Assembly: GCA_015039365.1 (NCBI GenBank)
Contig: WION01000043.1
Coordinates: 124,001 to 188,000, forward strand
Origin: Amanita rubescens
Lineage: Eukaryota; Basidiomycota; Agaricomycetes; Agaricales; Amanitaceae
Reading direction: 5' to 3'
DNA: 64,000 nucleotides
Below are positions 12,601-34,926 of the stretch, one piece after another. Under the pieces are notes generated by a model. It saw only the letters and a program-made list of their open reading frames with translations. It had not been told where the DNA came from and did not search any database. The position numbers and the translations under genes were made by a program. The first letter of the stretch is position 1. Each line of letters begins with the position of its first letter.

Positions 12601-13179
12601 TGTAAGGAAATTGTTATGCTGCTGCTTGAAAGAGGAGCAGATGTGAATGCCCAGGGAGGAACCTATGGAAATGCTCTCCAGGCTGCATCAGAACAAGGTT
12701 GGCAGGAAATTGTTACATTACTGTTTGAAAGAGGAGCACATGATGTGAATGCCCAGGTCGGAGGAACCTATGAAGATGCTCTCCAGGATGTATTATGGGC
12801 AGGCAATAGGCCTATGGAAAATTTACTTATTGAAAGAGGGGCTGCCAGTGTTAATTCAAGTTATGCCTATGACTCGGACTCGGACCATTCGGAAGTCTAC
12901 TATGGCAATCATCACCAACTTCTTGCTACATCACAGGGATATGCAGGTCAGAAGGAAATTGTTAAGTCAAAATCATCCAAAACAGGAGCACCTAAGGCAG
13001 CCTCAGAGAGAGATTTCAAGGCAACTGAGGTCTACTATGGCAATCATCGCCAACTTCTTGCTACACCACCAGCATATGCAGGTCAGAAGGAAATTGTTAA
13101 GTCAAAATCATCCAAAACAGGAGCACCTAGGGCAGCCTCAGAGAGAGATTTCAAGGCAACTGAGGACATATTGCTTTAA
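6649..13179 (+). CDS. Giant ankyrin-repeat protein with fungal N-terminal module (13 exons)
   Basis: A consistent model joins exons 6649-6868, 6939-7040, 7088-7113, 7180-7239, 7297-7673, 7728-8269, 8349-8485, 8542-8583, 8645-8686, 8755-8842, 8972-8996, 9035-9093 and 9206-13179, giving 5694 nt and 1897 aa. The first 136 residues are polar; an NFNFRAETVNVIIGDH stretch recalls the beta-strand motif at the start of many basidiomycete NLR-like proteins. Residues about 137-570 resemble a family I recall from agaricomycetes, with LYMPAPSSHLP, GDVGAVTAKGAFDF and NGSLYLVTE; it has no known function. The remainder is about 36 ankyrin repeats of 33 aa, many nearly identical, then a short serine/lysine tail with an internal duplication. 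Exons 1-4 are CpG-rich and the rest CpG-poor. Ankyrin arrays bind proteins; the target is unknown. The smallest introns (38 and 47 nt) and the last junction are the least certain parts. Confidence 0.7.
7149..7179 (+). repeat. Octamer microsatellite in an intron
   Basis: Four head-to-tail copies of TTTTCATG (first and last imperfect) form the pyrimidine-rich tract and 3' splice site of the 7114-7179 intron. Confidence 0.7.
9206..12870 (+). repeat. 99-bp tandem array encoding ankyrin repeats
   Basis: About 36 tandem units of about 99 bp encode the core ALQAASFSGHKEIVELL with GADVNAQGG at the unit junction. Units between about 10070 and 11050 are closest to each other. Some units are shortened or stretched (for example near 9745, 10560-10660 and 12380-12500), which breaks the helix spacing there. 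Confidence 0.9.
12895..13164 (+). repeat. 135-bp in-frame tandem duplication at the ankyrin gene 3' end
   Basis: Copies 12895-13029 and 13030-13164 differ at only a few positions. Each encodes 45 residues beginning VYYGNH and ending DFKATE, so the duplication keeps the reading frame. Confidence 0.9.
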
Positions 13180-13414: not shown

Positions 13415-15749
13415 TCAACAATAATCCATAAACCCCTGGACCCCACTCGCCACCACGGGCGGAAACTTAAACGCCATCAATTTATTCCCAAACGTGCGCA
13501 CGATCCTCCCGATAGACTCTCTCAACCCATCACTCAACTCGGTCAGGATCGCATTAGCTTTCGCACGTTCCTCCTCTGCTTGTTGATCTTCTTTTGATTT
13601 GGAATTTGCGTTTGCGTTTGCGTTTGTAGATCTGGATGGTGAGTCCGTAGTGGTAGCGGTGGTAGTCGAGTTGGATGGAGAAACATTTGCTGCTGCCGCG
13701 GTACCAGAGGCAGGAGACGACGAAGCCGCCGAGATTTCCGCGCGCCACTTGTCCACTTCCCGAAGGAACCTAACCATGGCTTCAAGAATCTTGGGTATAT
13801 CCCTCTGCACGACGCCGTACTGATCTTCCGTCAACGACGCACAAACGTAATGGCTCAACACTGTCACGAAACCATCAGCTACCAGATCAACAACGCGTTG
13901 GTGGGGGAAAAAAAAACGTACTATCAAAGACGACCAAATCCAAATCTTTATTCGGCACACCGTTTTCGACGAGTTTATGAACCCTTTCGCGAGTCCACCA
14001 TTCATAACTCATTTTCGTTCCACTTTTGAACCACACCGGACACCACGCATCACAATCGATTATCCACCCTTTCACGCGGTCCCTTGTTGCTTTTTTAAAA
14101 TCTTCAACCCACTTGTTGAACACGCCTCCGTCGCCATTCTGTTTCGCCGCCGCCGCAGCGGGCAAAGGAGCTCCTTCCCGTTTCGCAGGCGTACCATTCC
14201 TCAACACGCTCCTAAACAACTCTGGAACTTTCGCAACGACTTCTTCCACCTCGTCTGTACCTTCTTCAACGGCTCTTGCTAATGGACCGTCTGAAGCTAG
14301 ACATTCAGCAACGGCGCGAGCGGGGGTGGCCCAACTTGGTCTTTGTTGTTGTCCCGCCGGTCCGGTGCTGCCGAGTGGTTTGAATGCTGAGGAAGAGGTT
14401 GATACGAATTTGATGGGTGTGCTTGGGAAAGGTGTGCTTGGTCCTGCTTTTTTGGCTGCGTCAGAGGGCTGGGGAGCGGTGGATGCTGGTGAGGGGGGAG
14501 GGGGTTGGCCGCGGTGTAAGAGGGTTTGGAAGTCGTGTCCGAGTAAGAGGAGAGATTGGCGGACGAGGTGGGACCATAAACTCGGCGCGTACTTTTGGTC
14601 TGAGAAGAGGGAGGAACGGAGGGCGGTTGATGGGGGGTGTTGTGAGGAAGCGGCGTTTCGGAGTTCTAGGTAGGCGAAGACGTGGAATGGGAATGGAGAG
14701 GTGGAGGTGGATATACCGGATATGAGGGCGACGTTTGAGTCTGCAGTTAGGTGCGAGACTGTGATTGGCTGTGAGGTAGACGATTCAAAGAGGAGTGATG
14801 CAGATTCCCACGTCAAGAGGGTGGTGTATGCTATAGACCATCCTCTGACGAGGAGTGGGAAGTGGTGCAGGGGAAGAAAGAGCGTCCATGAGCCTCTTAT
14901 GAAGTGCGCGGTGAATGGTTTGAGGATGTAAGGAAGTAGCGGCGCTCGGTACAACAAGGGCAGGGCAAGGCGGGAGAGGCCGAACGCGATACAAGTAAGT
15001 GGCGTGCTAAGCGTTGCGAGGATAGTACAGATGACAAGAGCATGGAGGATGGTAAAAGTGCTGATGAGGGGCCGCGGAGACGACGAAGGGGAGAAATGGA
15101 AAACAAAACGGTCGAGGAGGATGTTCCGGAATGTATAGATGAGAGCGATAGCAGCTTGCGAGAAGATGAGGTAGATTAGGCGTGGGTTGAGGTATAACGG
15201 GTGTTTTCTATGACCTGAATGAGCATACACAAGGGACGAGAAAAAGTAGACGAACTTTGATTTGACGAACAGCCTAAGCTTTGCGTCACCATCAAAGATG
15301 ACGTGGAGAAGGAGTATGAGGATGGATGATAGCAGATATGTCGCTGTCGAGCGCGACGTGCTTGGTTTTGACAAGGCAGACTTGAGTAGAGATGAAGGTG
15401 ACGCGGCGGGTGTTGGTGTTGTTGTCAAGTACGTCTTCCGGATGACAATGGCTGGTAGAGCAGCCACAAGCCACGTTGCACCAGCCAAAAGAAGAGTCAA
15501 GGGGTAAAAGGGAGCAACAAACGTGCTACTCCCCAACTGCTCCACTCCGCCAAGGATCCACACTGTCCAGATGTAACCTTGAATCCAACATACGAGTGCT
15601 GAGTAGAAGAATACGTGGCGAACGAGACGTTGCTTGAGGATGTGTTTTCCGAGTGGAATGTATGATTGCTGTGGTGATGGAGCGGATGGCTGAGGACGGA
15701 CTGCGAGAGAAGAGCGGATGGCGCGCACAGGCGACGTCGAGTTGGACAT
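13415..15749 (-). CDS. NDC1: NDC1-like nuclear pore / spindle pole membrane protein, copy A (one frame break)
   Basis: Start at 15749 (MSNSTSPVRA). The N-terminal 300 residues contain about six hydrophobic segments (RLVRHVFFYSALVCW, LTLLLAGATWLVAALPAI, YLLSSILILLLHVIF, IYLIFSQAAIALIYTF, LVICTILATLSTPL and others). A long soluble half follows, with Pro/Ser-rich linkers and the LWSHLVRQSLLLLGHDFQTLL region. This is the layout of the NDC1/Cut11 nucleoporin family (Pfam Ndc1_Nup), which anchors pores and spindle pole bodies in the nuclear envelope. No introns are needed. The frame breaks at a run of nine T (13908-13916 on the plus strand): eight would link FDSTFF directly to PHQRVVDLVADGF and give one 777-aa frame ending at 13415. 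Since NDC1 is essential in yeasts and this is the better copy, the extra base may be a sequencing error; otherwise the product is cut to 620 aa. The identification is from pattern, not from a search. Confidence 0.7.
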
Positions 15750-18789: not shown

Positions 18790-19005
18790 TCAATCATCTG
18801 AGGCAGTACTATTCTGGGTTATTGAGTCACTATCACTGTCCATTGAATCACTCATTCTCCTCATTGCCACCACTAGCCGTGCATCATTGATTGGTCCAAG
18901 GTACTTGGCTCCATGTGCTAGCAGCAATTGGGCAATCTCTGTGACACCTCTGTGACATGACCATGCTGCAACATAAAGTGCACTGCCATGCTTTTCTCCT
19001 TGTAT
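18790..19005 (-). pseudogene. Severed C-terminal end of NLR copy 1
   Basis: Encodes the end of a NACHT-ankyrin protein, with AQLLLAHGAKYLGPINDA followed by a Ser/Asp tail (SDSMDSDSDS), matching the ends of NLR copies 2 and 3. It lies just beyond the dma1 stop, where copies 2 and 3 have their NLR 3' ends. Its missing upstream part is the NLR gene that begins again at 30811: one piece ends in GADVNI and the other resumes at IQGEK, so together they account for one ancestral ankyrin repeat. It lacks a start and is not a gene of its own. Confidence 0.85.
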
Positions 19006-19018
19006 AAACTTATCGATG

Positions 19019-19034
19019 GCGGCACTCGTGCCGC
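19019..19034 (-). repeat. Hairpin near Helitron 3' end
   Basis: GCGGCAC-TC-GTGCCGC, a perfect 7-bp stem with a 2-nt loop. It sits about 15 nt from the junction with NLR sequence, as Helitron 3' terminator hairpins do. Confidence 0.65.
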
Positions 19035-19078
19035 AGGTCCCGCTACGTGGAAGAAGAAAATATTCGTACAATAAACGT

Positions 19079-20610
19079 TTAAATATAATCTATACCCATT
19101 TCTACATCTTCGGTTTCGCCGTCTGTATTATCACTTTCAACTTCGATCTTTTTCACTTTTCCTTTTCCTCCTTTCGGCTTGACGTCCGGCTCTGTTTTCA
19201 GGCCAGCCTTCGGTTTTCCCTTCCTTCCTCTTGTTTTTGAGGAGGTGGGACTGGGAGGCTCGACGATTTCCGCCTGGAAATGGTCAGTGTAAAAAAGACA
19301 AAAGGAATGGTGCGCGCACTTTAGTGTCTGTCTTAGACATCGTGTTCTCGAAAGGAGGAGTGGATGTGGAAGCAGCAATTTGATTCTCATTTGTAACCTT
19401 CCGTTTTTTGGTAGCGAATAGGTCGTCCAAAGCGTCGTCTGTTTCGTCACGCTGTCCTATAACGGATGTTACACGGCTAGTGCCGGACTTTGAAGACTTG
19501 TTCGGGCTTTCCATTTCTTCGGTCGAAATAGCCACGACGCGGATTCTGTCGATGAGAAATTGATAAATCTGCAAAGAGGTCAGAACATTGATGTTGTCAA
19601 GTGAACGAAGTGTCGTACCTTGCGGAAGCCGTCTTTTTGACGGTCAGGGACTTCAAAAGTGAGGAGCTGGACTTTCATCAAGACGAGAGTCCCTGGGCGT
19701 AACTTATCATGCATTTGCCATGGGGCAATTAAGTCATCATTGCAATCAACGATGTCTCGTTGCACAAGTCTTGCGTTGACTAGACGAAACACAGGGCCAC
19801 CATAGTCCGGAAGAAGATGAGGATCATAGAATGATCCAACGGAGATTTCTACAGGTGGTGGTCAGCTTGGAATCAAGTGCGAGGTGTAAAAGAACAGACC
19901 AGAAGGGAGGGGGGTAGCTTGTTCATTTGAAGACTTTCTCGTAACAGAGGGGTGGTCATCTCTGGAGCGGAATACACGTTTAGGTGCGGTCCGAGAATTA
20001 TTGGCGTTGGAGTGAGTAGAGGAAGCGAGGGCCTTAGGAACGACGTATTTGGGACCCAGATGAGTCGCGATTAAATCAGCGTCGGCGCCATTTGAGGGTG
20101 CGCGTGGAATTTCGGTAACACCCAGGATACAAACGCCGCCGTCATATTCCATATCTGAGTCGTGGACGCGTAGTTTGTTTAAGTTGTCCAGTTGATAATC
20201 GTACAAAACAGAGAGATCGTCGGGAGCATTTGTCGGGTGTCTCAGTATAAAAATATCCTTAATCGTGGATTTGTCGGTGATCGAGTTAGGCTAGATAGCA
20301 TTAGATCAATAAAAAAAAGGGTAAAAAAAGTAATTAAACGAACCGCGTTTTTATTTGAACCAACGTAATGATTGCCCATGGCAGAATGGCGAGTACCCAT
20401 GGACGCTGACGCAATTTCACCAAAGATTACGGTTGTAAAAGGTCGACCGTCTGAGAAAATCAATTCGCGAGAATCATTAGGGTCGCGTTTCCAATCTTTT
20501 CTCCATTCAATGTTTGCCAACGCGTGGTTGCCGAGATTCAACAGGTTTTGAATGAAGGTGTCGTATAAGCCAGATGTGGTTCTAGTTTCGTAGCATTCGT
20601 CCGAAGACAT
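19079..20610 (-). CDS. Conserved fungal protein of unknown function, Helitron cargo
   Basis: Exons 20610-20344, 20290-19900, 19848-19619, 19568-19320 and 19273-19079 give 1332 nt and 443 aa, all with clean GT-AG introns of about 50 nt. The first half is globular (SDGRPFTTVIFGEIAS, then LPDYGGPVFRLVNARLVQRD and LRPGTLVLMKVQLLTFEV). The C-terminal third is disordered and strongly basic (KTRGRKGKPKAG, KPKGGKGKVKK), suggesting a nuclear or nucleic-acid-binding protein. I recall similar hypothetical proteins in agaricomycete genomes, often near Helitron helicases, but know no function. The central beta-rich part might be OB-fold-like, which would fit the RPA-type proteins carried by some plant Helitrons; this is speculation. 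It ends about 75 bp inside the element's 3' end, and its start lies about 150 bp past the stop of the helicase gene, on the same strand. Confidence 0.75.
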
Positions 20611-20757
20611 GATGAATTGAGTTAGAAACAAGGAAAGCCGGATCTTCAGGGTTTATAAGCACGGGGAGAAAAGGAGGATCGGAAAAAATTGAAAAAGGGG
20701 TGTTGGGGATCGAAATGGTAAAGGGGAAAAGTCGAAGATAATAGGAGAAGATCAAAA

Positions 20758-23700
20758 TCACATGGACGCGGAGGTTTTCTTTTTTTTAGAAGATGACGGA
20801 TGCATGTCCGTGTCATCGTCACCAATGTCTTGGCGAGATCTTTTGTGAGATGACGGATCGCCAAGCGCTCGAAGCTTTTGCAGCTCTTGTCTCGCCGCAG
20901 CAGAGTCGTCAGTAGACCCGTGTTTAATCATAGTATGCAAGTGGAGAATGCGCAGACGCCGTTCTTCAGCACGAGCATCCTGGGACAGACAGCAACGGAT
21001 CTTCCTTTTGTCGAATGGCCGATAGATTAGTAAACCAGACAGTGATTTGACGCGGGAAATCATCACGTAGGGAGCCTCGGATCCGGAGCAGGAATCGAGG
21101 TCAACAATGGCTCTCTTCATAGTTTGACCTTGCGATTTGTGTGCCGTCATCGCGAAGGCGGGGACAATTGGACACTGCCTCCGTCGGACGGACCAGCAGT
21201 AGCGTCTTTGATGGGTGTACGAGAAGTAGATTGTTTGAGGCAAGATGGGGTATAGATTAGGTGAAAGCCCAGGCATAGACGCAGAGCTAGATTTGGGAAA
21301 AGAGACTATACAACAAGTTAAAACGCGCCTTCCATCAGACGATGTTTTATATAAAATTGAGTGAACAAAACCGATTGATCCATTAGCTATTCCAGATCCC
21401 ACGCACACGTTGTTGGTCAACATAACCGGCATTCCGACAACGAGTGGAATTTTGTACAGCATTCCGTGAGAGATACCGCTATGAAGTGCATCGAGAACAA
21501 GGGCATGTGGTGAATTGGCTGATATCAGTTCGTTATTAACGTAGTCCTCGGACCAATAGTGATGTAATTCTTGATTGGTGCTTTGGCCGAATTGTCGCGC
21601 AAATTTTTCATTTAAAGCGTCTTTAGTTGCATTGTCGCAAACGATGACGGGGGCGGACGAGAACTCTCCTAGCGATTGACGGGATGTGCAATGGTTTACA
21701 ACACGAGAGGACAACAGCGCATAGTCATCGTCAGTACAATTGCCAACACGAAGTCTTGTAAGTAATTGCCGAAAAGCTTCATCATCTGTTCCGCTTTGCC
21801 TGTTGTTACCTGTCAACATGACGACGGTGTCGACAGTAAGCCAAAGAGCTCGACCTTTTTTTTTGTTTTGCGTTGCAGGAGATAATGCATGAGAAAAATT
21901 TTTCAGTTGTGAAGACAAGCGTGTTTCGGAGACGGGAGGAAGTTGTGCCATGTCCCCGGCGAAAATAACATTGATACCACCGAATGCAGAAGACACCCCA
22001 GTAGCTTGAACGAGGGCATCATTGATTTTTGACAGGAATTCGCAGCCAATCATTGACACTTCATCAATGAAAAGGTAGTCGACGTCTGCCCACAACGAAC
22101 GAAGTTCATGGAGTGCTTTTGAAGACAGTTTTTTTGAGTTGAGATTTAAAGCTGTATGTAAAGTCACACCACCAATGTTATCTGCAGCGATGCCTGTGTA
22201 AGCAGTGAGTTTTAAGCGATGCGATTCTTGTCGAATGGCGAATAGGTGACAGAGCGCATGTATGACACGTGATTTCCCCGATCCGGCAGCGCCTGCTATA
22301 AACATTTTTAGAGGTTCAGCTTCGTTATCGCTCGCATGGTGAGCAATTCTTTTGAATGCGCGACATTGGTCCGAGTCGAGCGTCCAATGAGCAGCGGTAC
22401 GGTCAATCAACTCTGTTGAAGATAATTCATTATGTGGTAACGCAGTGATTGATTGAATGTGGGTGTTGGACCCAGATGCATGCTGTTCAAACAGGGACGT
22501 CATTGTCATAGTACTGTGAGTTTCTGTTTCATTGGGTGTAGAAATTTCGGATTGACTTGCTAGCACGGAGGAACCACTGGATTTCCAGCGAGCTTTTCTA
22601 GTTTCGTATTCAGCCTTCCACGATGCAGCAATTGCCACGTCATCACTAACAGCGGGGCGGACCGCAGATGAATGAAAGCGGTCATCGTTCGGATAGTGAT
22701 ACTTCATGGAAAATAGACCAGCGTGTGCACCTCTTCGCATTACAGGCTCGATAACAGACCTGCGTTCAATTTGTATTTTCTTTGCAATTGAAGAGATTTC
22801 GTTTTCATGACAATCAGGAAGATACATGGATACATCATCGGGATTTCTATTTGTTTCTGCCGAAACGACCACGGATAATCTGGAAGAGGAGTTGGCCAGG
22901 TTTGTTGCCGCTGTCCTGCGAAGCCGATAATCTGCATCCCGACTATCTTTGCATTCGTGTAGCAATTGAATGTTGTTAATAATATTCAAGTGCTGTTTGG
23001 CAACCGAGCTGCTGCTGATAAAGTCCTCATACGCATTGGCCCACGTGGAGCAATTGCCACGTAAATCGTCACAGGTTCTCCACGGGCGGAAGAACATTAA
23101 CATCAACCTGCAAAAACGTTCATATGAATTTGGATTATCACGGCGAGGGACGGAAGGTCCCACAAGCACAGGCACAGACCGGTTTCGGTAATCGAACACT
23201 CGTACGGCATGAGATCTGTATTCTAAATGATCTGGCCCAAAAAGAAGGTTTTGGCGTTGATTGCATGCAGAAACGATGGCGTCATATGGTAGTTGAAAGC
23301 GCTGAGTTGAATTTTGAGTAGAGTCTCTCTCCGACAATTGATTTTTTCTAGATGTCGAAAGCAAAACTTTTTCGCAATGCGCGACGAAATCCCATAAGCA
23401 CAAACTGTTCAAGTCCGGTGGACGGAAAAGATAATCTGAAAGCTGAGATCCTCTCCTCATTAAACCATTCGCTTGGTTTAAACGTACTCTTGCAATCTCG
23501 TCCGATTCATCAGGATGTAAATTTGTATTTGAAACCGTTTCGTTTACATTGACAGAGGATTCGGGAGACGTCAATGGCATCATTCGATTGAGATATTCTT
23601 CCATATGTCTCCAGAAGAGCCGACGAAAAGAGTGACTCGTGTAACAATCAGAACCGCACAAAGAAAACAAGGCAACTTGTTGGGCAGACAACTCTTGTAA

Positions 23701-26700
23701 GGCCACAATTGAGTTAGCTGCTTTCCGTATCATGGCACAAGCAAACTCTTGCTCTGCATCCTCACTAGCGGGTTCGACGAATAATTGCGGAGCTGATTGA
23801 AGCTTATTAATGGCAATCTCTAGTGCACTGTAAACAACATGCATTTTTAACTGCGCTTTTGATACATAATCGGTAATGTAATAGAGTATTGCTTTCGCAG
23901 ACGTCCCAGATCCTATAAATTTAATGTCCATGTTGCAACGCAAAGATTCAATTATCGTCTGGTTGTAGTTATTAATCAACCCATTTTGACATTGATACGC
24001 AATCTCCCCTGTTTCATAGTCGACAGTCGTATGAGGCCGATGATTTTTTGCATCGATTCGGAAACGACATGTCAAATCTTGCGAGTTTTTACAGTACTTA
24101 AAACAAGTCGCAGAGTGCGTGTGCAACTGACATTTTTGGACTAAGTTATGCATGTCTTTAGCTTTTCGACAAGCATAATCGTTTTCAGTTTCGTTACCAA
24201 AAGGAACCACGCACCGTACAGAGCAAGGGTGATTGGAACTTGATAGCACATTGGAAATATCTCCGGGATCTAATGGAAGGTTCGTTGCAATGTTAGTTTC
24301 TAAATAATCAATCAACTTTTTTTCAAAATGTTTATCAGTCGGAATAAGAAGCCTTTCCCGTATTTCGTTTGGATTCAGAGCACCTTCCAACCATACGAGC
24401 ATATGACAATGAAGAGTCCCACGACCTTGCGCTTCAACGCAGCCATAAAAAGCTTTGGTGTATCCAAATAATCCTTTTTTTCTTTGCCTTTCTGGAGTGT
24501 ATCCGAGTACCGACGAAAAAAAATTATTCATGTAAATGTCAAAGAACCGAGCCGCTACAACAGGATTTTCCGCAATCAGTTTAGATTGTGTGAAATAGTC
24601 GGATTTGTACGACATTGGCAAATTTTCAATATCGATGTCGTTCCCGGCCAAGAAAGAAACAAGGGGATTGTATACATCTGCCAGGTTAATTGTGATGAAA
24701 AAGCTCGGAACACCGTGCTGAGCAACCATTGATCTAATCTCTTCTCGCATGGCCATGCGGGCGGCATTAGACCCCATCACTGTTGAATTAATGGACTGTA
24801 CATCCTGCATAAGAGTATGAACTGCTCATTCTTCTGTTCCAGGATCCGCGGAATAATCGCCATTTGCTACTTTTTGTGACACACAATGGATAGTTTCTGG
24901 AGACAAACGAGCATACAGCCTCGCTTTATGCTCAAAATCTGCTCGTTTTATCTGCATAGACGTCCGTCGCAACACTTCGCGGCGCTGCAAGATATTGAAC
25001 GCTGTAAACATAAAACTCGGGTGAGTCTGGAATCGGCGGTCTGACAACGATAATAGATGTTTTAATTGAGCTGCAAATCCCACGGAAATGGATCGAGAAG
25101 GGTCTTCGAATCCTCCGTAACCATATGGGTACAAAGTTGGGTACATACTCGGAAACAACGTATGATTATGATAATCTGTTTCGGGTGTTCGTCCGTGTCC
25201 AATTTGTAAATACGGCTTTCCATGTTGCAGATGCCGAATGGCCGCAGCACGCATTTCTGCCGTGGTCGGTGCCACATTCAAATCAGCAATAACCAATCTT
25301 TCTAACGGGATAGAGAAATCATTCTCCGATGATGGTGCACAATTAGTTTCACGGGAAAAATATCCAGACAAGGCCTCATCGTTAACCACTGATTGGTCTA
25401 CATGCTCAACAACAAATGGTATACCGTCATTTTGTTCTATCTCTGCAAGAGCTTGATCGTTGATGATTATATCACGGTATAAAATGTTATTTGCTTTAAG
25501 CCAAACTAAAGCTTGACGTACTTTATCTGGACGTACAGCCAGTGGACGGGCATGCTTAACCAAAAATTCTCGACTAGGTTTTGCCAATCCTACAAATAAA
25601 ATACAAATGTATTTCAACAACTCGTCAACAGGAGGAGGTAGAATTGTCGCAATAAATTGTGTATCCTGGGGAAAGTAAATTGTATGACCCGTAAACCCAC
25701 GTTGCGCGTTGACATTAGAGCGTTTGGCATTATCCTCTCTCAATTGCAGAATAACCCCTTTTTGACGCGTGAGTGAAATCATTGCTTCCTCGACAACGGA
25801 CAAACTTTGTAACTCCAATGGGATAGATCCTACATATAGATGGTTTGATAACGCCAACTTTGGCAGGCGACCGCTTTTCAAGGACGTTAAACAAGTATTG
25901 CATAATGTAAGAACCCGACCATTAGCTGTATTCTTGACACCACTTGAAGACAACATGACATCACCATTGTTAATAAAACCTTCCACGTCATACCAGCTGC
26001 TTGGTGGCAATAATGGACTCAGATCAAGATCATTTTCATTTACATCGTTGGTGACAGATTGGAGTACACGTTCGTCACAACAAGCGCAAACACGCTCTTC
26101 CAATACATTCAGGCTAATCTGCTCGTCAAACGATCTCTGGATTGCTGCTTTATCTATCTCAGAACAACATTCAGGCCATGCCGATCTGGCTTGTAAAATC
26201 AAAAAAGGGTCTTCATATATTGCGAACAGTTCTAACCACGACTGCAATATGGTTATTCCATGAGAGTGCGCGATGATATAGTTTTTTAATTGTTCGTACA
26301 TTGCTTCAATGCTTCTCTCAGAGCCGCGTCTTATGCCCAGTTTCGATAGTATTGATTTTAGGATTGGCAGACTTGCAAAGCGACCGACATATACCATACT
26401 CAAAATAACTATGTCACGGTTACTATTGGCGCTTTGCAGCACATCTGGCCACTGAGACGCAGCTAAATGGCAAAGAGGACCAGTCAACGATGTATGACTT
26501 ATACACGCTCCTGAGATTACATGGTCTAACAAAGAATCTAGAACTTTTGGGTTTGAATCAACCAAATTTAGCCCATGCAAAGATGCCAATTGCAAAAGTT
26601 CTTCTCGCGGAATTTTAGGATTTAATTTTTGAATCAGTAAACCCAAATTTATAGGCATTTGAGACCGTGAGGCTCGCACCCTCAGATTGTCAGCCATCTC

Positions 26701-27162
26701 ACTAGTTGTGGATTTCGGGTCTACTCTTAAACCAATTGCTACGCATATTTCGCGCAATTCTGGTTTACCAATGCGCAATTCCCGTACTCGTATGAATATA
26801 ATGTCTGCTATCTCTTTTTGAATATCCTGCATTTCAAACCCATGCGTACTTTCACACATCGAGCCACTTCCACAGGCGCACATCCCATTGATAATGTGAA
26901 ATAACAACAAATGCCTTGCTTTTAAATCAGATTCCCCATCGCTGTACAATCCATGCTCGATCAGCCTTTGTTTTAACACCCGTTTTGGTTGAACAAAAAT
27001 GGAATATGATGCCTCAATGTAAAGCTTTACCATAAGGCAAAGATGTGTGCGTAAACGATTTAAATTTTTATTATCGACATCAATTTCATGTTCAGAATTA
27101 TCTGACATAGAAAAATCGGCGAACGGTGCTCGATTTTCAAAAGAGCTGAAATAACGATTCAT
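20758..27162 (-). pseudogene. Helitron Rep/PIF1-type helicase with one in-frame TGA
   Basis: One intronless 2134-codon frame starts at 27162 and stops at 20758. It is broken only by a TGA at 24828-24826, in the same frame on both sides. The N-terminal 780 residues contain a CxxC-type zinc-binding pair (CACCDE, then CNTC about 60 residues on) and a domain usual in fungal Helitron proteins (LFPSMYPTLYPYGYGG). The Rep nuclease follows, with the HUH motif GRGTLHCHMLVW near residue 918 and the tyrosine region YYITDYVSKAQ near 1090. The PIF1-like helicase has Walker A GAAGSGKS (about 1620), Walker B IDEVSM, GDMAQLPPV and TAHKSQGQT (about 2005). Rep nicks and joins single strands and the helicase drives rolling-circle transposition. 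A CGA codon would fit family sequence at the stop (EER...LMQDV), so a single CpG transition may have killed it. Read-through or a sequencing error are alternatives. Confidence 0.92.
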
Positions 27163-27603
27163 CGTTAATAGGAATATAATCCAATTAGTTCAAATATTCG
27201 CACCTTTTACTATTATTTGGAGAATGATCCCAAGAAGACGAACCGGAATGTCCGTCGTTGTGCGTCGGAATTTCGTCGGAACTAATAATTCCAATTGAAC
27301 GTCAATAGAAATCAATGAACCAATCATTTCCAACATTCGTACCCGTTGCTATTCTCGTGAGAGGAATTTGAAGATGAGAAGGGACCAAAACCGGAATGTC
27401 CGTCTTTGTGCGTCAGAATTTCGTCGGAACTAATAATTACAATTGATCGTCAATAGAAATCAACGAAACAATCATTTCCAACATTCGTACCCGTTACTAT
27501 TCTCGTGAGGAGAGTTCAAAGATGATAAGGAACCAAAAGGGCTTTTTTCGCGAGTAGGAATTTCGTCTATTGTCTTCTGTAAGCGAAAAGAACATTTTTT
27601 AAA
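27163..27603. repeat. About 148-bp tandem repeats upstream of the Rep gene
   Basis: About two and a half units, the two best-aligned starting at 27241 and 27389, share AACCGGAATGTCCGTC, GGAACTAATAATT and CAATCATTTCCAACATTCG. They sit directly upstream of the Rep/helicase start on the reverse strand, so they lie in its promoter. No gene is visible here. Confidence 0.75.
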
Positions 27604-28068
27604 TTATAAACACACACCTAGTATTGACGATAACACGTCATCATCCTGTTCACATGACATTGGACGCGGCACTGTATTTCGATGAGTATTGATCTGGTTT
27701 TTTGGTTTGTCTATCTTACCACGAGGTACGTTCGGCAAGAGAATATTTTCTTGGATAAGGTACTCTCGAAAATAGGAGACCCAATCCTTCCCTAAGACAC
27801 AGCAACCATCTATGTCATCGACAACGAACTTGGTGTAACAGCCGAACAATCCTACAAGTGTAGGAACGGTGACCATGCGCTGACCGCTGCTATTGATTGG
27901 GCGGTGTGCATGGAAACTCCGCGGAACAAAGGACGACGCGGCACTAGGATCTACACGAGCCATCAGGCGGTCATTATCCACATCGATTTCAATTGTTCCC
28001 AATGGCAAATAACGGTCCATGGCTTGACCTTTCGCTGGAGAGGAAGAATGACAAAAGTTGAGACTCAC
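27604..28068 (-). CDS. Retropepsin-like small protein, Helitron cargo
   Basis: A 154-aa frame starts at 28068. The part LMARVDPSAASSFV has the shape of the active-site loop of retroviral-type aspartic proteases, where D-S/T-G-A-S is expected. The later KFVVDDIDGCCVLGKDWV matches the usual second-half signature hhLGxDWh. The catalytic triplet reads D-P-S rather than D-S/T-G, so activity is doubtful. No reverse transcriptase or integrase lies nearby, and the gene is collinear with the Helitron genes, so it seems to be captured or domesticated cargo. An upstream exon may be missing. The fold assignment rests on two motifs only. Confidence 0.5.
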   Translation of the reverse strand: MSLNFCHSSSPAKGQAMDRYLPLGTIEIDVDNDRLMARVDPSAASSFVPRSFHAHRPINSSGQRMVTVPTLVGLFGCYTKFVVDDIDGCCVLGKDWVSYFREYLIQENILLPNVPRGKIDKPKNQINTHRNTVPRPMSCEQDDDVLSSILGVCL

Positions 28069-28313
28069 ATCTTCTCATATATGTACCCCAACCCCTTTAG
28101 CCCCTTATTGCGATCGTCTCCTATTTTTTCTATTCAACGCTGCTGAAGTAATGGTGCCCGTCCGTAAATGTGTTTAGTCTGCGGGAAAGAAGTTGCAAAA
28201 AAAGAAACGAACCTTATCGTCGAATTTACCATTCGCCTAACTGGAAAACTTTCAAAGGATCTTTTTGCCAAATGGAAAGAATAACGCTCGTCAACCGAAT
28301 CGATAAAACAAGA

Positions 28314-28694
28314 TTACAAATATCGTACAATATTACGTAATACATCGTTGATCTCCTCGTCTTCAACGTCAACAATCTTCCCCTCCACGATTTTAACGTA
28401 TAACACATCACCGACATCTTCGATTTTCATTTCGTTGATAAGCGGGATGTGCCCAGGCCTGCCTTCAGGGGTTACGGGTATGGATGCGTAATAGACAACG
28501 GCACATGTTTTATATTCTTTGCAGACACGAACCCAGGTGCGGGACATGATGTCAGCAGGTTTGGTGATCCAATAATCAACATCGTGCTTGGAAATGCCGC
28601 TGGAACCGCATGGAGCATCCGCGCGAACGAGAATTGGTACTGAGTAAGCTGATTTCCAACCGTTGTACACATAGACCCCGAATTGACAAAGAAC
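28314..28694 (-). CDS. Small Helitron cargo protein, trio member 3 (5' end unresolved)
   Basis: The last exon begins after an acceptor at 28695 (VLCQFGVYVYNGWKS) and ends at 28314. It shares with its neighbours a hydrophobic start followed by SVPILV, then DYWITKP, CAVVYYA and a C-terminal VGDVLYVK plus IVDVEDEEINDVLRNIV. A short first exon should lie near 28740-28775 (a GTGAGT donor is present), but no start joined in frame. The family is unknown to me. The protein seems to be a compact alpha/beta unit of about 125 residues without signal peptide or membrane segment. Confidence 0.55.
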   Translation of the reverse strand, partial: VLCQFGVYVYNGWKSAYSVPILVRADAPCGSSGISKHDVDYWITKPADIMSRTWVRVCKEYKTCAVVYYASIPVTPEGRPGHIPLINEMKIEDVGDVLYVKIVEGKIVDVEDEEINDVLRNIVRYL

Positions 28695-28925
28695 CTGCGA
28701 GTCAAGGTGGAATCAGCGATGTAACCTGACACGATTGGTACTCACGTCGCCATATATTTCTCATGAAAACGTATTGTAAAACGCACTGCATTTCGCAGCG
28801 ATTGGGTCGAACGGAATATAACGAGTCGAAATCATTGAAACGTGAGATGTGACAAAAATGGCCGTGGTTTATATCTCTGTGTGTTAAATAGGAGCAGCAC
28901 CTTTAAAGACAACTCCTATTGTTTT

Positions 28926-29413
28926 TTACAAAGTATAGAGAACATCCATCAAATCTTTTTTATTTATCTCTAATGCATACGGCCAGCTGTGATTCGCCCA
29001 CACCACTAATACATTGCCATACCAGCTTCGGAACTTGTCACTGAGCATTTTGTTCCAAGCGTTTTGCTCAGACGCTGTTGACTGCCGGACGTAGTAGACA
29101 ACGCAATGCAATTTCCGGTCAGCCGTTGAGACCACGATATCTTTCGTGTGAATGTTTACTGCGTTTCCTGGCTCTGTAAGCCAAACTGAAAAATCCCATA
29201 AAAAGTCGTTATCGCTTGCTGCCAATGGAATAGGTACAACAGCCGTGTTCGAACATCCGACGCCGTAGAATAATGCCAGAAAGTAATGCTGTCAAAATAG
29301 GTTTTTATCACCAGCTTTGCCCGAAAACTGGATTTGTTACATACCTGGTCTTTTTGAATCATATCTCCTAGTACACGGCATGTAAAATCGTCCGCATATA
29401 TGAGAGATGCCAT
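28926..29413 (-). CDS. Small Helitron cargo protein, trio member 2
   Basis: Exons 29413-29345 and 29288-28926 give 432 nt and 143 aa, with a 56-nt GT-AG intron. It aligns with the flanking genes over TAVVPIPLA, VWLTEP, HCVVYYV and the end LEINKKDLMDVLYTL, but it is the most divergent of the three. The intron position corresponds to the splice site just before the hydrophobic segment in member 3, supporting common descent by tandem duplication. No function is recognised. Confidence 0.6.
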
Positions 29414-29600
29414 GAGAGTAGGTAGTTCTACATACCTTTTATGAGACTTTTATACAGTCTGAAAACCAATGCACCCTATTTTCAAGGTACTCCTTTTTGT
29501 AATTTGGTAATCATCACACCGACGCAAGTTGCTTAAACACCGCAATCGGATACATGGAAAATACAATCTTTTACAGTTACATCGTTCCGTTTACTCATTA

Positions 29601-30242
29601 CTAAATAATAACTTCAAGATTACTGAGCACTTCGAAAACGTCCTCATCTTCTACGTCGACAAGAGTATCGTTGACCCTTTTTGCAAACAAAACATCTCCA
29701 ACCATTTGCACGTATTCCTTGCTGAACCCGCAATCTTTGTGCTTCAGAATTTTGGTTGCGTAATAAAAGAGAGTGTATGCGTGAGCTTCCTTGACGATAA
29801 GGTGCCATTCTTTTATGTCCATAGATCCCTCGAAAACTACAGGCCTCTTGATCCACGTCTCATAAGCCAGTTTGAACGCACTCCCTTCTTCGTGACCGTT
29901 TACAGGAGTATGAGGTCCTTTAGTCAGCGCTGTTAACGGCACAGGCACAATATGCGCCGCTCGCCAAGAGTTGGATATGTAAATGCAGCGTCGAAACAAT
30001 GACTGCTGAAAAGGATAAGTATTACGCAATTCAAACGTCGGTATCCTTACTGGTTCGTTATCATTCGAATGTGCGAGTTCTGCTTTTTTCATCTTCTCGT
30101 ACAACGCATTTGCTTGGGAAGAGATGGGGTTGTATGCCATGATACGTGTGTTGGTTGACATCTCGCTGATACTGCTGTAAGTGGTCAATTTTCTTTTTAA
30201 AACTAGTTTGGAAAAAGGAGACCAATCGCATCTCGATGACAT
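29601..30242 (-). CDS. Small Helitron cargo protein, trio member 1
   Basis: A frame of 213 codons; the true start may be a later Met (MSTNTRIMAYN, about residue 28). An N-terminal helical polar region (ANALYEKMKKAELAHS) precedes the shared core: IVPVPLTAL, YETWIKRPVVF, YTLFYYATK, and the conserved end VGDVLFAKR with LVDVEDEDVFEVLSNL. The match of the VDVEDE...VL.N signature with the gene at 28314 is striking, given that the genes are separated by a diverged third copy. It is the first gene from the element's 5' end. Function unknown. Confidence 0.6.
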   Translation of the reverse strand: MSSRCDWSPFSKLVLKRKLTTYSSISEMSTNTRIMAYNPISSQANALYEKMKKAELAHSNDNEPVRIPTFELRNTYPFQQSLFRRCIYISNSWRAAHIVPVPLTALTKGPHTPVNGHEEGSAFKLAYETWIKRPVVFEGSMDIKEWHLIVKEAHAYTLFYYATKILKHKDCGFSKEYVQMVGDVLFAKRVNDTLVDVEDEDVFEVLSNLEVII

Positions 30243-30296
30243 AAAAGAATCACGATCGCGGGACGTTTTCGTTAACCGACATCACTGAGGCGCAAC

Positions 30297-30444
30297 GATC
30301 ACAACCGCACAGGTTATCTTCGCTGTGATCACAACCGCGCGGGATACTTTTTGTGGAACAATGAATGGAGCGGTCCGATTACAACCGCGTGAGATGCGAC
30401 CGGATCGAAAGTAGAATAAAGCGGTGCGCTGCGATCACAACCGC
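30297..30444. repeat. Four 12-bp iteron-like repeats near Helitron 5' end
   Basis: GATYACAACCGC occurs in the same orientation at 30297-30308, 30327-30338, 30377-30388 and 30433-30444, in otherwise unrelated sequence, upstream of the first cargo gene. Spacing is 30, 50 and 56 nt. Confidence 0.75.
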
Positions 30445-30624
30445 ACGAACTCCTTTCATCACAGAAGCATTTGATGAAAACTGCTGTGATTACGACCTCA
30501 CACTGATTTCATGGAAGGTCATACATACATTTTCAGAGCGACGAGGCTGTGGAACGGAACGTATTTTACTTTTAGTCTTGTCGATTCAACGGGTGTTTCA
30601 GGAGATAGCAGCCGGTTGTAGAGT

Positions 30625-30675
30625 GGATCTTTCATTCGATCACGTCGTCGGATCCTTCATTCGATCACGTCGTCG
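30625..30675. repeat. 25-bp tandem duplication
   Basis: GGATCTTTCATTCGATCACG, continuing TCGTC, is followed directly by a second copy that differs at one base. It lies between the iteron-like repeats and the 5' end of the Helitron. Confidence 0.8.
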
Positions 30676-30790
30676 AAAGCGCTGAGGATGTTTCCTTCCG
30701 ATCGTACCGAGTAGTGGGGATTTTGTCACGCATTCGTGACCGTCACAAATGTCAGGTGACTGCTGGGCCTCGCTGGTTCGTCGGACTGAA

Positions 30791-30810
30791 CCCACTACTT
30801 ATGTAGCGGG
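30791..30810 (-). repeat. Hairpin at Helitron 5' end
   Basis: CCCACTAC-TTAT-GTAGCGGG, an 8-bp stem with one mismatch (G-T in one strand), exactly at the junction with NLR sequence. Confidence 0.6.
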
Positions 30811-33800
30811 AATATTAACATCAGCTCCACTTTGAAGGAGCATCTCAACAATATCCTTCATCTGATGTAATGTAGCCAAGATGAGAGCAGTGCCATACTT
30901 TTTGTGATGGGAGTTAACATCAGCACCATTTAAAAGCAGTATCTCAGCAGTTGCTCTGTGACCAGAATGTAATGCAGCAATGAGAGCAGAACCATAGTAC
31001 TCCCCACCAAAGTTAACATCAGCCCCCCATTCAAGGAGTAGCCAACAATTGACTTGTGACCCCTAGCTGATGCTGCAATGAGAGCAGAGCCATAATAGTA
31101 GCCTGCCTGGATATTCACATTGGCCCCCCATTCAAGGAGCAGTTGAACATTATTTATATTACCCACCCAAGATGGAGCTTGCAGTGCAGTGCCCCAGTGT
31201 CCTCCAACTATATTCACATCAGCTCCCCATTCAAGGAGCAACCTAACAATGTCATCTGAAGCATCCCCTGCTGCAACATGCAACGGTGGAATATGGTTCA
31301 AATCTTGCATTCCATAATCATTTATATGTGCTCCCTTCTCTAATAGAAGCTTGACAATGGCCTTGTGTCCTCTCTTTAATGCAGAAATAAGTGCATTGCC
31401 ATCTCTTGTTGTTGTATTAACATCTACTCCTTCATCCAAAAGTAGCTCAACAATATTTCTGTACCCACCTTTACATGCAGCTACAAGAGCCTCACCATGA
31501 TATCCACCATAGACACTTGGACTTGCTCCATTTTTAAGCAACAGCTCAACAACTTTATTGTGGCCCTGTGACATTGCAGCCCAAATGGCATAACCATATT
31601 CTCCTCCCTGTGCATTTACATCTGCTCCATTGTCAACAAGTAACTGGGCAATGTTTTTATAACCCTTGAGTGAAGCAGCATACAGGGGATTTCCCCCATC
31701 TTCTCCCTGACCATTTACATCTGCTCCATTTTCAACAAGTAACTGGGCAATGTTTTGATAACCCTTGAGTGAAGCAACATACAGGGGATTTTCCCCATCT
31801 TCTCCCTGACCATTTACATGTGCTCCATTGTCAAAAAGTAGCTGGACAATGTCCTTATAACCACTGACTGAAGCAACATGCAGGGGAGTTTGTCCATCTT
31901 CTCCCTGACCATTTGGATCTGCTCCTTGTTGAAGTAGAAACTTAACCAGTTCCTTATGGCCTGTACCTGCTGCAGCACATAAAGCATGGCTAATTTGTCT
32001 TCTATACATATTCACTTCTATGCCTCTGTCAAGCAGGAGCTTCACAATATGTAAATGCCGTCCCCTGGATGCAGAGACAATTGCATTAGCTTTTGCCTCC
32101 ATGTCAGTTCCACTCTCCAGAAGATGTTCAACAATGTACTTGCGACCACCCTTAGCTGCATTACTCAAAGCTCTTGCAAGTAGTTCCTTCCTATGTATTG
32201 TGTATGCCAATTCTTTTTCATTTGCCAGACCTCTCAGTGATGCACTGGACTCAGAAAGCCACAATTCTGATCTCAATAAAAGGTCAACAATAGCCTTACG
32301 ACCATAATATGCTGCTGCCTCTACAACCTCAAGTATTATTTCCTTCCTTTTCTTTTCATCTGACTCTTGTTCAAGCACCAGTTGAACTAATTCAATATTG
32401 CCATCCCTTGCTGCATCTCTCACATAATTGATATCCATTTTCAAATTCAGACCACTGCAATCAATAAGCAGTTTAATGGCTGCTGTTCCTCGAGGCCTGA
32501 CCATTTTAAAGATAGACACATTTACAATTTTCTGAAACACATGACTGTCTTTCCCATGTTCGCACAATATCCTAACAACCTGCTTTTGACCTCTTTCTGA
32601 TGCATCTTGAAGAGCCTCACAATACCAATTACTCATGACTTTAATGTTTCCTTTCTCAAGTAGCAGTGTCACCATATTGATATGTCCATTGTAGGCTGCT
32701 GCATATAGAGCTTCCATGCACTCCACATCATTTACTGGTTGTAGTATCAGCCATTTAGCTGTTTCAATCAAGCCATGTAGGGCAGCAATTTGAAGATAAT
32801 TTGGATATCTCATTGCCACATTGCGATATCTCCCACCATTATGGTTGTAAGCACCACCCCAATATGCCAAGCTCTGAGATTCAAACAGGTTAATGATTTG
32901 GTTCATAACAGCTGACTCTTGCTTGCATGCCAAGATATGCTTTGGCCAAAAATGTGCAGCATATCGGAGCAAAGACTTTTCAAATCCTGTTGAAGCAGGC
33001 CCTGGACCCTGTTCAGGAATTGCCTGCTTCCTTTGCAATATGTATGCCAGACCACATTGTCCAATAAAATAGTGGCCAAAGCAAGGGTCTACTTTCACAG
33101 ATGGGCCTATCTTTCTTTTGTCACTCTCAAAATATTCCTTGATAGATGCATGTGCAAACTGAACAGTTTCATCCTCCATCTTGGTCACAAAACTGGAACA
33201 AATCTTGAGCACATCATCAGGATAATCCAACTTGGCATCCACATCAAATTGTTGCCTTTCCACATCATATTCTAGAATGATGGCCAAGTCCTCCACATGT
33301 ATTGGCCTTTCAGAAAATGTAAGCCACAAGAGTAGCTTCATGGCATTCATTGCATCTGCTTCTTCAATTCTTGTCAGAATCTGGTCATATGTGGAATTCA
33401 ATGTAGCAGGGAGATGGTTAAGCTTTTGTTTCAGCATGTTTTGGCTTTTGCTACAATGTTTTAGTTCTTCCAATTGGCAGGCAACCCATCTAAACCTATG
33501 TATAATAATAATTCATGATCCAACATCTGACAGATGACAGAGCTATACTCACATTCCTTTTCCCTTTTCCATAAGAGTCACTTTGATAAGTTCCTTGGCA
33601 TTTGGTTTCCATGTTTTAAGCTCAGTTGCAGTAAACAGCATATGATCAATATACTTTGCAATGTCTTGATTTACTGGCATGGAAGTGAGGTCCACTTCAA
33701 TGGGCATTGTTTGTCTCAGAGAGTTGACAATTGGTAATTCCTTCCTGCTTGTGACAAGAAGGTGGCAACTTCTGATGTTCCACCCATTAATAAGTTTCAC

Positions 33801-34926
33801 AAGCTCAAGTACTTCCTCCACATTCAAGGTGCATTCATCAAGTGCATCAATGAATAAGTAGACATCCTGAAATCCAGACAAGTAGGATTTCAACACTTCA
33901 TATAAATCATGATCTGTTGGTTTTTGAAGCCCATCTTTGCATTTTTTAAATAGCTCCTTGAGTACTGATTGGTTCTGGGGAGTAAAAAGGGTCAAAACTA
34001 TTGAGCAAAGGAGACCTCTTGCTGTTCTTTTGTTGATGTCAGAAACATCACAAAAGAAGTAAGCTAAACCAGTTGATTTGCTGTCAGTGTGTTCTTGAAT
34101 GGCTTGAATCAAAGTTGAACTTTCCAGGTGTGAATGATAGCAGATGGAAATTCAATAAGCTCACCAGAGAACTGTTTTTCCTGAGCCAGCTACAGAAATG
34201 GTTATTTAAAATACTGAAACCTGATGTTGTACTTACAGATACCATGAATCCACAAGAATGAGTTATCTCTCTTTTTCCATTCTAAATAGATGGGGCTATT
34301 GAGAAGCCATGATCCAGTATTGTGCAAGTGGCTCTTAAGTGCATTGTTGAAATTGGTAGATGGATCAGGTGGTGTCAGCCACTGCTTATACTTATCTGCA
34401 GTACTGTTAGCCTGATTCATTGCATATGTATGCAACTTATAGTGAAATTCACCCATGCTCATTCCAGTCTCATGGTTGGCTAACAGCTGAGTTAGAGACA
34501 CTGTCCTGTCAGATATTTATTTGTACATACTATTGAATACCACATCTTGATTTGCTGCAATTATAGTACAATTGTCCAAAATAACAGGGCCCTGGGCATG
34601 ATCCAAAATTCGGACACCACTAGCAATAAATCAAAGTTAGCAGGCAGAGGATTTTAAACTGGATAACACTGTTGTGCATACCCATTATTTACAGTGGATG
34701 ATGATTCCCTATTAAGATGTTTATATTTGGACATGAACTAAAGGGATTCATCACCGTACCTGTGTTCCCAAGCTGCATAATTGGAGTCCACTTCCATATC
34801 CCACTCCTGAGTGACAGCCTCTTGAGGCTGCATTTGCATTTCATTCCCTTTTGCCTTCTTCATCTCAGTTCGAGTCTCAGCATCAGCATGTGAGTTGGCG
34901 GATAGTGCACGTTTGCGACCATTCAT
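30799..34926 (-). pseudogene. NACHT-ankyrin NLR-like gene, copy 1 (truncated by Helitron)
   Basis: Exons 34926-34760, 34619-34531, 34479-34237, 34189-34165, 34119-33553 and from 33495 join in frame. The N-terminus has a nuclear-localisation-like basic patch (MKKAKG), then RILDHAQG...CTIIAANQD, a motif common at the start of basidiomycete NLRs. The NACHT NTPase has Walker A GISGSGKT split over exons 3 and 4, Walker B VYLFIDALDEC and LLVTSRKE. A winged-helix region and about 20 ankyrin repeats follow. A one-base deletion near 31042 (GTTGGCTAC against GTTGGGCTAC in copy 3) shifts the frame to a stop at 30930, giving about 1218 aa. The original frame would run to 30799, where the Helitron supplies a stop. 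Such proteins are thought to act as intracellular sensors in non-self recognition. The 3' end lies at 18790-19005. Confidence 0.85.

Follow-up and report, generated by a model that had tools for sequence, protein, structure and literature searches.

An ankyrin/NACHT gene of Amanita rubescens interrupted by a multi-gene Helitron2-like element, with the element's gene set and a proposed transposition route

The interrupted NLR-type gene and its insertion site

We analysed a 64,000-nucleotide stretch of the Amanita rubescens genome (assembly GCA_015039365.1, contig WION01000043.1, positions 124,001 to 188,000; hereafter the window), in which a Helitron2-like element lies within a gene of the NLR type. 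As listed in Table 1, the element encodes a Rep/helicase and five further proteins, G1 to G5. The window contains three NLR-type units with a NACHT or NPHP3_N domain, a winged helix and ankyrin repeats, their best matches showing 84-87% DNA identity. In unit 1, the minus-strand NLR sequence reaches position 30812 and resumes at 19005, adjoining genes with FHA and RING domains, whereas units 2 and 3 are uninterrupted at the corresponding point (39.3-39.6 kb and 52.3-52.6 kb). The break described in the earlier note on this DNA, with its continuation at 19005, is therefore real. The earlier note used the name dma1 for the NLR-adjacent gene; our domain search returned FHA and RING. The detached NLR piece gave no Pfam match of its own.

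The break in unit 1 is bordered by the dinucleotide AT on both sides, whereas the uninterrupted paralogs have one AT there. The net change is thus the gain of the element and one AT without loss of a target base, which is formally also a 2-bp duplication, and the position of the cut relative to AT (before, within or after it) is formally ambiguous. When the two flanks were rejoined with one AT and compared with the genome, 32 matches were obtained, of which 16 crossed the junction by at least 30 bases on each side. Two of these 16 were the other NLR units of the window. The paralogous empty sites that the earlier note had claimed are therefore present, but the allele with a continuous NLR gene for which it had suggested a search was not found, as no rejoined-flank match in the genome exceeded 83% identity. 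The edges proposed there (19003-30811) differ by at most 3 bp from the refined ones. We read 19006-30811 as one multi-gene Helitron that entered an A. rubescens ankyrin/NACHT gene in a single event. The notion of a split NLR gene holds for the DNA, but this copy also carries a frameshift: compared with units 2 and 3, it lacks one nucleotide near 31,040, some 230 nt upstream of the element, and may not have been a working gene when the element arrived.

A related element of 10,555 bp is located on contig C786 (C786:53383-63937; contigs are denoted by C and a number) and has ends of the same kind. Its rejoined flanks with one AT matched three places with 100% identity over 309 bp, representing an exact empty site. 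An assembly join or a chimeric contig could in principle mimic an insertion, as the genome is distributed over 786 contigs, several of which start inside a related short copy. However, both edges of the window element are termini that recur at other sites, AT is present on both sides, and the C786 element behaves likewise, which makes such an artefact extremely improbable.

Table 1. Features of the element and of the gene it interrupts (window coordinates)
Feature	Position	Strand	Details	Basis
Helitron2-like element	19006..30811	-	11,806 bp; AT at 19004-19005 and 30812-30813	empty-site comparison, shared ends
NLR-type gene, 5' part	30812..34112	-	NACHT/NPHP3_N, winged helix, ankyrin repeats	Pfam
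3' end of same NLR gene, detached	18790..19005	-	last ankyrin-like repeat and tail	aligned to unit 3
5' terminus	30791..30811	-	hairpin TCCCGCTAC-ATAA-GTAGTGGG, read in element orientation	
G1, accessory gene paralogous to G2 and G3	29601..30281	-	bounds are those of the open frame	
G2, paralogous accessory gene	28926..29413	-	one 56-nt intron at 29289-29344	gene model
G3, third paralog, main exon	28314..28712	-		
G4, small protein	27604..28074	-		
Tandem duplication	27241..27538	.	about 150 bp, 90.7%; between G4 and Rep/helicase	
Rep/helicase	20758..27162	-	DUF6570, Helitron_like_N (HUH, two-tyrosine motifs), PIF1 helicase	Pfam, motifs
G5	19079..20610	-	443 aa, 4 introns	spliced gene model
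3' terminus	19006..19046	-	inverted 5'-end copy GTAGCGGGA (19038-19046), then hairpin GCGGCACGAGTGCCGC, then CATCGATAAGTTT	

Element ends, class assignment and short derivatives

When the genome was searched with the element ends, the 5' end gave 37 matches and the 3' end 18, including the window itself. As the earlier note had suggested searching for, further copies have both ends in common. Across the copies, the 5' end is formed by the hairpin TCCCGCTACRTAAGTAGTGGG with small variations, and the 3' end consists of the inverted CGTAGCGGGA, a GCGGCAC..GTGCCGC hairpin and a short tail with TTT before AT. In the window element, TCCCGCTAC recurs as an inverted copy 32 nt from the 3' end, in agreement with the asymmetric inverted repeat noted earlier. 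The terminal hairpins, also noted earlier, are present with 8 and 6 pairs and conserved among copies. Their energies compared to shuffled sequences are unremarkable (z -1.7 and -1.4); as their stability is ordinary for the composition, the argument rests on the conservation of the hairpins. The 3'-end pattern, allowing up to 2 mismatches, was found at 74 places in the genome, compared to 0 for the reversed control. Sixteen of the 74 share one duplicated block and represent one insertion. All 20 distinct 5' flanks among the loci compared end in AT, a set that was found with a 5' query itself ending in AT and in which two flanks differ by one base and probably represent one duplicated site. A T at position -4 was present in 8 of these 20 flanks. 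With these results, exact termini are now available for annotating such elements.

Membership of the Helitron superfamily is supported by a Rep domain (HUH, two tyrosines) and a PIF1/SF1 helicase combined in one protein and by the precise insertion without target loss and with a recoverable empty site. Regarding the class, our comparisons draw on PMC4289320, PMC5148889, PMC4067079, PMC4683698, PMC6431247, PMC12730594, and PMC5686142. The element has the asymmetric terminal inverted repeats and the palindromes at both ends that characterise Helitron2, but all 20 flanks show AT instead of the insertion between TTTT and T or C described for this group (PMC5148889). Of the canonical Helitron1 ends, 5' TC is present and 3' CTRR is absent, as the 3' end reads GTTT(AT). 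Helitron1 elements insert between A and T; the 20 distinct 5' flanks here all end in AT, and the cut may lie inside or next to this dinucleotide. Judged on its termini, the element is Helitron2-like, i.e., of the asymmetric-inverted-repeat type, as the earlier note had proposed. The alternative label used there, Helentron, had to be dropped, because no AP-endonuclease domain was found among the Pfam matches up to E 1 and because the 20 distinct 5' flanks have AT instead of the TT reported for Helentron insertions (PMC4067079). Helentrons resemble the window element in their subterminal inverted repeats, their 3' stem-loop and their extra open reading frames, which include a single-stranded DNA (ssDNA)-binding RPA (PMC4067079), whereas the window element carries a predicted single-strand DNA-binding protein (SSB)-like gene with viral or phage-type fold matches.

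The most similar end architecture is that described for FoHeli1 and FoHeli2, a Helitron2 variant of Fusarium oxysporum (PMC5148889). Shared features are hairpins at both termini, an asymmetric inverted repeat whose 3' copy is set back from the end by some tens of bp, a 5' TC and insertion beside AT; the exact end is formally ambiguous there too. They differ in having their own ends (TCAG...ATTTT), a size of about 5-6 kb and a TNAT target, which fits only 8 of our 20 flanks, and no RPA-like gene is reported by their authors (PMC5148889). HELPO1 of Pleurotus ostreatus is likewise an Agaricales element, of up to 13.7 kb, with AT insertion, unknown genes downstream of the Rep/helicase (RepHel) gene and 1.5-kb non-autonomous copies, but its ends are of the type T[C/G]...CTRR, and its extra genes, described as lying downstream of RepHel, were called captured (PMC4289320).

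Short elements that share these ends and measure about 1.6 kb have become numerous in the genome. Three of them, on C55, C17, and C242, show no difference over 1,533 bp although their flanks differ. Identical copies at three sites imply recent activity, and relatives with internal deletions but both ends intact have multiplied recently. Four annotated A. rubescens proteins (P0004, P0006, P0014, and P0016) are chimeric, with a G1- or G3-like start joined to a G5 end when inspected by eye, and three of them (P0004, P0006, and P0016) come from contigs whose lengths match those of contigs with these ends (C439, C343, and C257). The G1::G5 and G3::G5 chimeras are gene models that rely on predicted introns, and their junctions differ; in the C55 short copy the frames are broken at the genomic level. 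In the elements on C503 (2.05 kb) and C783 (4.6 kb), no relative of the element genes was detected at E 0.001. The 2.05-kb copy (C503:7463-9511) lies in a nearly identical block present on many contigs, some of which start inside the copy, and on several contigs 883 bp separate its 3' end from the contig end. Subtelomeric amplification was considered and rejected, as none of the five loci checked showed a TTAGGG array. The contig-end loci compared simply start inside the repeat, and we therefore regard the arrangement as one duplicated block that was fragmented in the assembly.

Gene set of the element and its conservation

On the element strand, the gene order is G1, G2, G3 (these three being paralogs), G4, Rep/helicase, and G5. 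Antisense open frames of at least 200 aa were found neither in the window element nor in the C786 element, which agrees with the earlier description of genes on a single strand. The Rep/helicase contains the HUH, two-tyrosine and Walker A motifs, and its frame in the window is interrupted by a single in-frame TGA at 24826-24828. The corresponding frames of relatives are open (2,183 aa in C786 and 2,263 aa in C273). Judging from the reading frame, the window copy probably makes no full Rep/helicase any more, and because of this one stop it would move only with the help of a relative. In the literature searched, preprints being outside its scope, no link between a Helitron and DUF6570 was met.

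G1 belongs to no Pfam family, and only two database proteins, from 39 candidates, were obtained as its relatives. G4 shows a weak pattern, VDxS...VLGxDW, which we take to be retropepsin-like; the glycine expected after the aspartate is absent. A PDB profile search returned four weak matches: the best, at E 0.094, was a 'Ubiquitin family protein', followed by two DDI1 entries (E about 0.5) and a ribosomal protein (E 0.99). A retropepsin function of G4 is thus a lead only, drawn from this motif and these matches.

The C786 element has the same gene order as the window element, with a G1-type gene, G2, G4, Rep/helicase, and G5 at 35-71% protein identity (53% for G2). It has no G3 gene of its own; G3 only cross-matches the G1 place, at 33%. 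In C786, like termini accompany the genes, which places the gene set within the Helitron lineage. On C273, we found G3 (59% identity), an open Rep/helicase frame (35-41% identical to that of the window), G5 (38-55%), G2 on the opposite strand (46%), and a frame with a weak match to G4 (E 0.17, 25% identity in the alignment). The inverted G2 and the 59% identity of G3, compared to 35-41% for the helicases, suggest gene exchange between Helitrons. C273 has most of the genes, one of them in reverse orientation, but matching ends were not found in the sequence examined there. The earlier note had held that finding the genes elsewhere without these ends would speak against a single Helitron, and this applies in part to C273, whereas C786 has the ends.

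When the window and C786 elements were compared, every gene examined showed less nonsynonymous than synonymous change, with synonymous sites near saturation. The ratio of nonsynonymous to synonymous differences (pN/pS) ranged from 0.16 to 0.43 in three exons of G5, from 0.32 to 0.40 in Rep/helicase, and from 0.38 to 0.52 in G1, G2, and G4. These substitution patterns suggest that the element genes stayed coding.

The neighbourhoods of the element genes were counted from 74 3'-end, 100 G5 (merging to 62 places), 41 G1, and 58 RepHel matches; these counts are lower bounds, with 95 of 191 G5 and 57 of 103 RepHel candidates scored. Among the best nine Rep/helicase matches, seven have a G1 relative 1.1-1.6 kb upstream, corresponding to about five independent cases because C13/C358 and C273/C620 look like duplicates; the other two are C1 and C330. 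A G5 relative was located at most 7 kb downstream of the N-terminal Rep/helicase match in four of the nine and at 25 kb in one, and none was found in range for the remaining four, some of which lie near contig ends. For the other 49 matches, no G1 or G5 relative was present within the ranges tested (0/49). The 3'-end pattern follows 31 of the 62 G5 places at a distance of at most 2.5 kb downstream; the other 31 lack it. Eleven places (C192, C201, C293, C295, C411, C466, C482, C523, C56, C673, and C70) carry a 42-44% G5 relative with near-equal scores and no 3'-end pattern; they probably represent another Helitron subfamily.

The earlier note had regarded the extra genes as cargo, and a Helitron that captured five host genes would fit the known behaviour of these elements; Castanera et al. 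likewise called unknown genes beside the RepHel of Pleurotus 'captured' (PMC4289320). The higher identity of G3 to the C273 gene (59%) than to its best C786 match (33%) points to the possible transfer of one gene from element to element. Against capture, the set recurs in order in C786, except for G3, and mostly in C273, and relatives of G1 and G5 accompany the helicases of the lineage. Host-gene capture was therefore rejected as quite improbable, and the term cargo does not stand. Instead, the extra genes look like the standing kit of a transposon family. As a caution, unknown genes within Helitrons need not be captured host genes.

G5 as a predicted SSB and the proposed transposition route

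The spliced G5 model is identical to the A. rubescens protein F5887DRAFT_1284308 (P0001). Between the window and C786, exons 2 and 3 of G5 are 71-76% identical and exon 4 is 49% identical, compared to 51-61% for Rep/helicase. By sequence, G5 had no match to a Pfam family or in the PDB. Two low-confidence structure models, of the Amanita and a Mycena protein, predicted an SSB-like fold of viral type (ASFV/T7-type). For the Amanita model, the top 23 Foldseek matches were ssDNA-binding or phage-related proteins, and for the Mycena model the top 13 VIA matches were ssDNA-binding or annealing proteins. The best fold alignments cover both halves of the protein, and giant-virus and phage proteins were on top of a viral fold search. 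RPA was absent from the 50 matches listed in each of four fold searches, which is uninformative either way. SSBs of the T7 and ASFV CP312R types have an OB fold in which a long helix follows strand 2, and those of the T7 type an acidic C-terminal tail; of 10 G5 members examined, 6 had more D+E than K+R in the last 30 residues. According to these models, G5 is probably a virus-like, non-RPA ssDNA-binding helper of a fungal Helitron.

G5 might instead have an OB fold with another role, e.g., that of a nucleic-acid-binding regulator. The low confidence of the models leaves room for this, as do the OB domains of tRNA synthetases and MCM/CMG among the lower-ranked fold matches, some of which rank high for the Mycena model. 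The ssDNA-binding, annealing or phage-related proteins that lead the matches to the two models and the coverage of both protein halves by the best alignments argue for an SSB, and we consider the other role doubtful, though the most serious of the alternatives. A further alternative is an integrated DNA virus or plasmid-like replicon, for which the combination of a Rep with a virus-like SSB fold and the top hits of the viral fold search could be cited. The DUF6570-Helitron_like_N-PIF1 architecture, the Helitron2-like termini and the short derivatives with the same ends speak against it, however, and a Pfam search of nine frames gave no capsid or polymerase domain, so that a replicon of this kind is very improbable.

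Helper genes in fungal Helitrons are already known, and the helper set of the window element differs from them. TET/JBP Helitrons of fungi, including a Helitron2 of Agaricus bisporus, provide a precedent for a proposed helper gene besides RepHel (PMC12730594); the gene there encodes a dioxygenase, whereas no such domain was detected by Pfam in the nine window frames. Element-encoded RPA is described for plant Helitrons and some animal ones (PMC4683698, PMC4067079, PMC6431247). The plant element DHH_Mothra resembles the window element in encoding an ssDNA-binding protein, also in a RepHel-less element, but this is an RPA homolog (PMC4683698), whereas G5 has no sequence match in Pfam or the PDB. 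Two fungal studies report no element-encoded ssDNA protection (PMC5148889, PMC4289320), and the HELPO1 authors state that RepHel has no RPA domain (PMC4289320). No SSB of a fungal Helitron was met in the literature searched, although one could be in print elsewhere.

We propose a transposition route in which Rep would nick the element at its 5' end and the helicase would displace one strand as ssDNA. The G5 protein would coat this strand as an element-encoded SSB, replacing the RPA of plant Helitrons. The 3' hairpin would end the process, and the element would insert at AT. We are fairly confident of the account as a whole, i.e., a multi-gene Helitron2-like insertion in an ankyrin/NACHT gene with its own gene set and this route. 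A wider proposal is more tentative: a lineage of Agaricales Helitrons might be a self-equipped rolling-circle replicon with a standing gene set besides Rep/helicase, including a virus-type (T7/ASFV-like, non-RPA) SSB and a fast-evolving 5' gene group, and the 'captured' Pleurotus genes may be the same SSB. If a conserved non-RPA SSB-like gene is confirmed, the ssDNA step of transposition becomes testable in mushrooms, since a single genome contains short copies that are identical at several sites as well as relatives whose Rep/helicase frame is open.

Two further features of the window were observed outside the element. A 1298-aa open frame at 9283-13179 consists mostly of ankyrin repeats with strong internal self-similarity. 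In addition, positions 100-1743 and 13416-15069 form a duplication with 92.7% identity, which overlaps an Ndc1/Nup nucleoporin gene (13887-15749).

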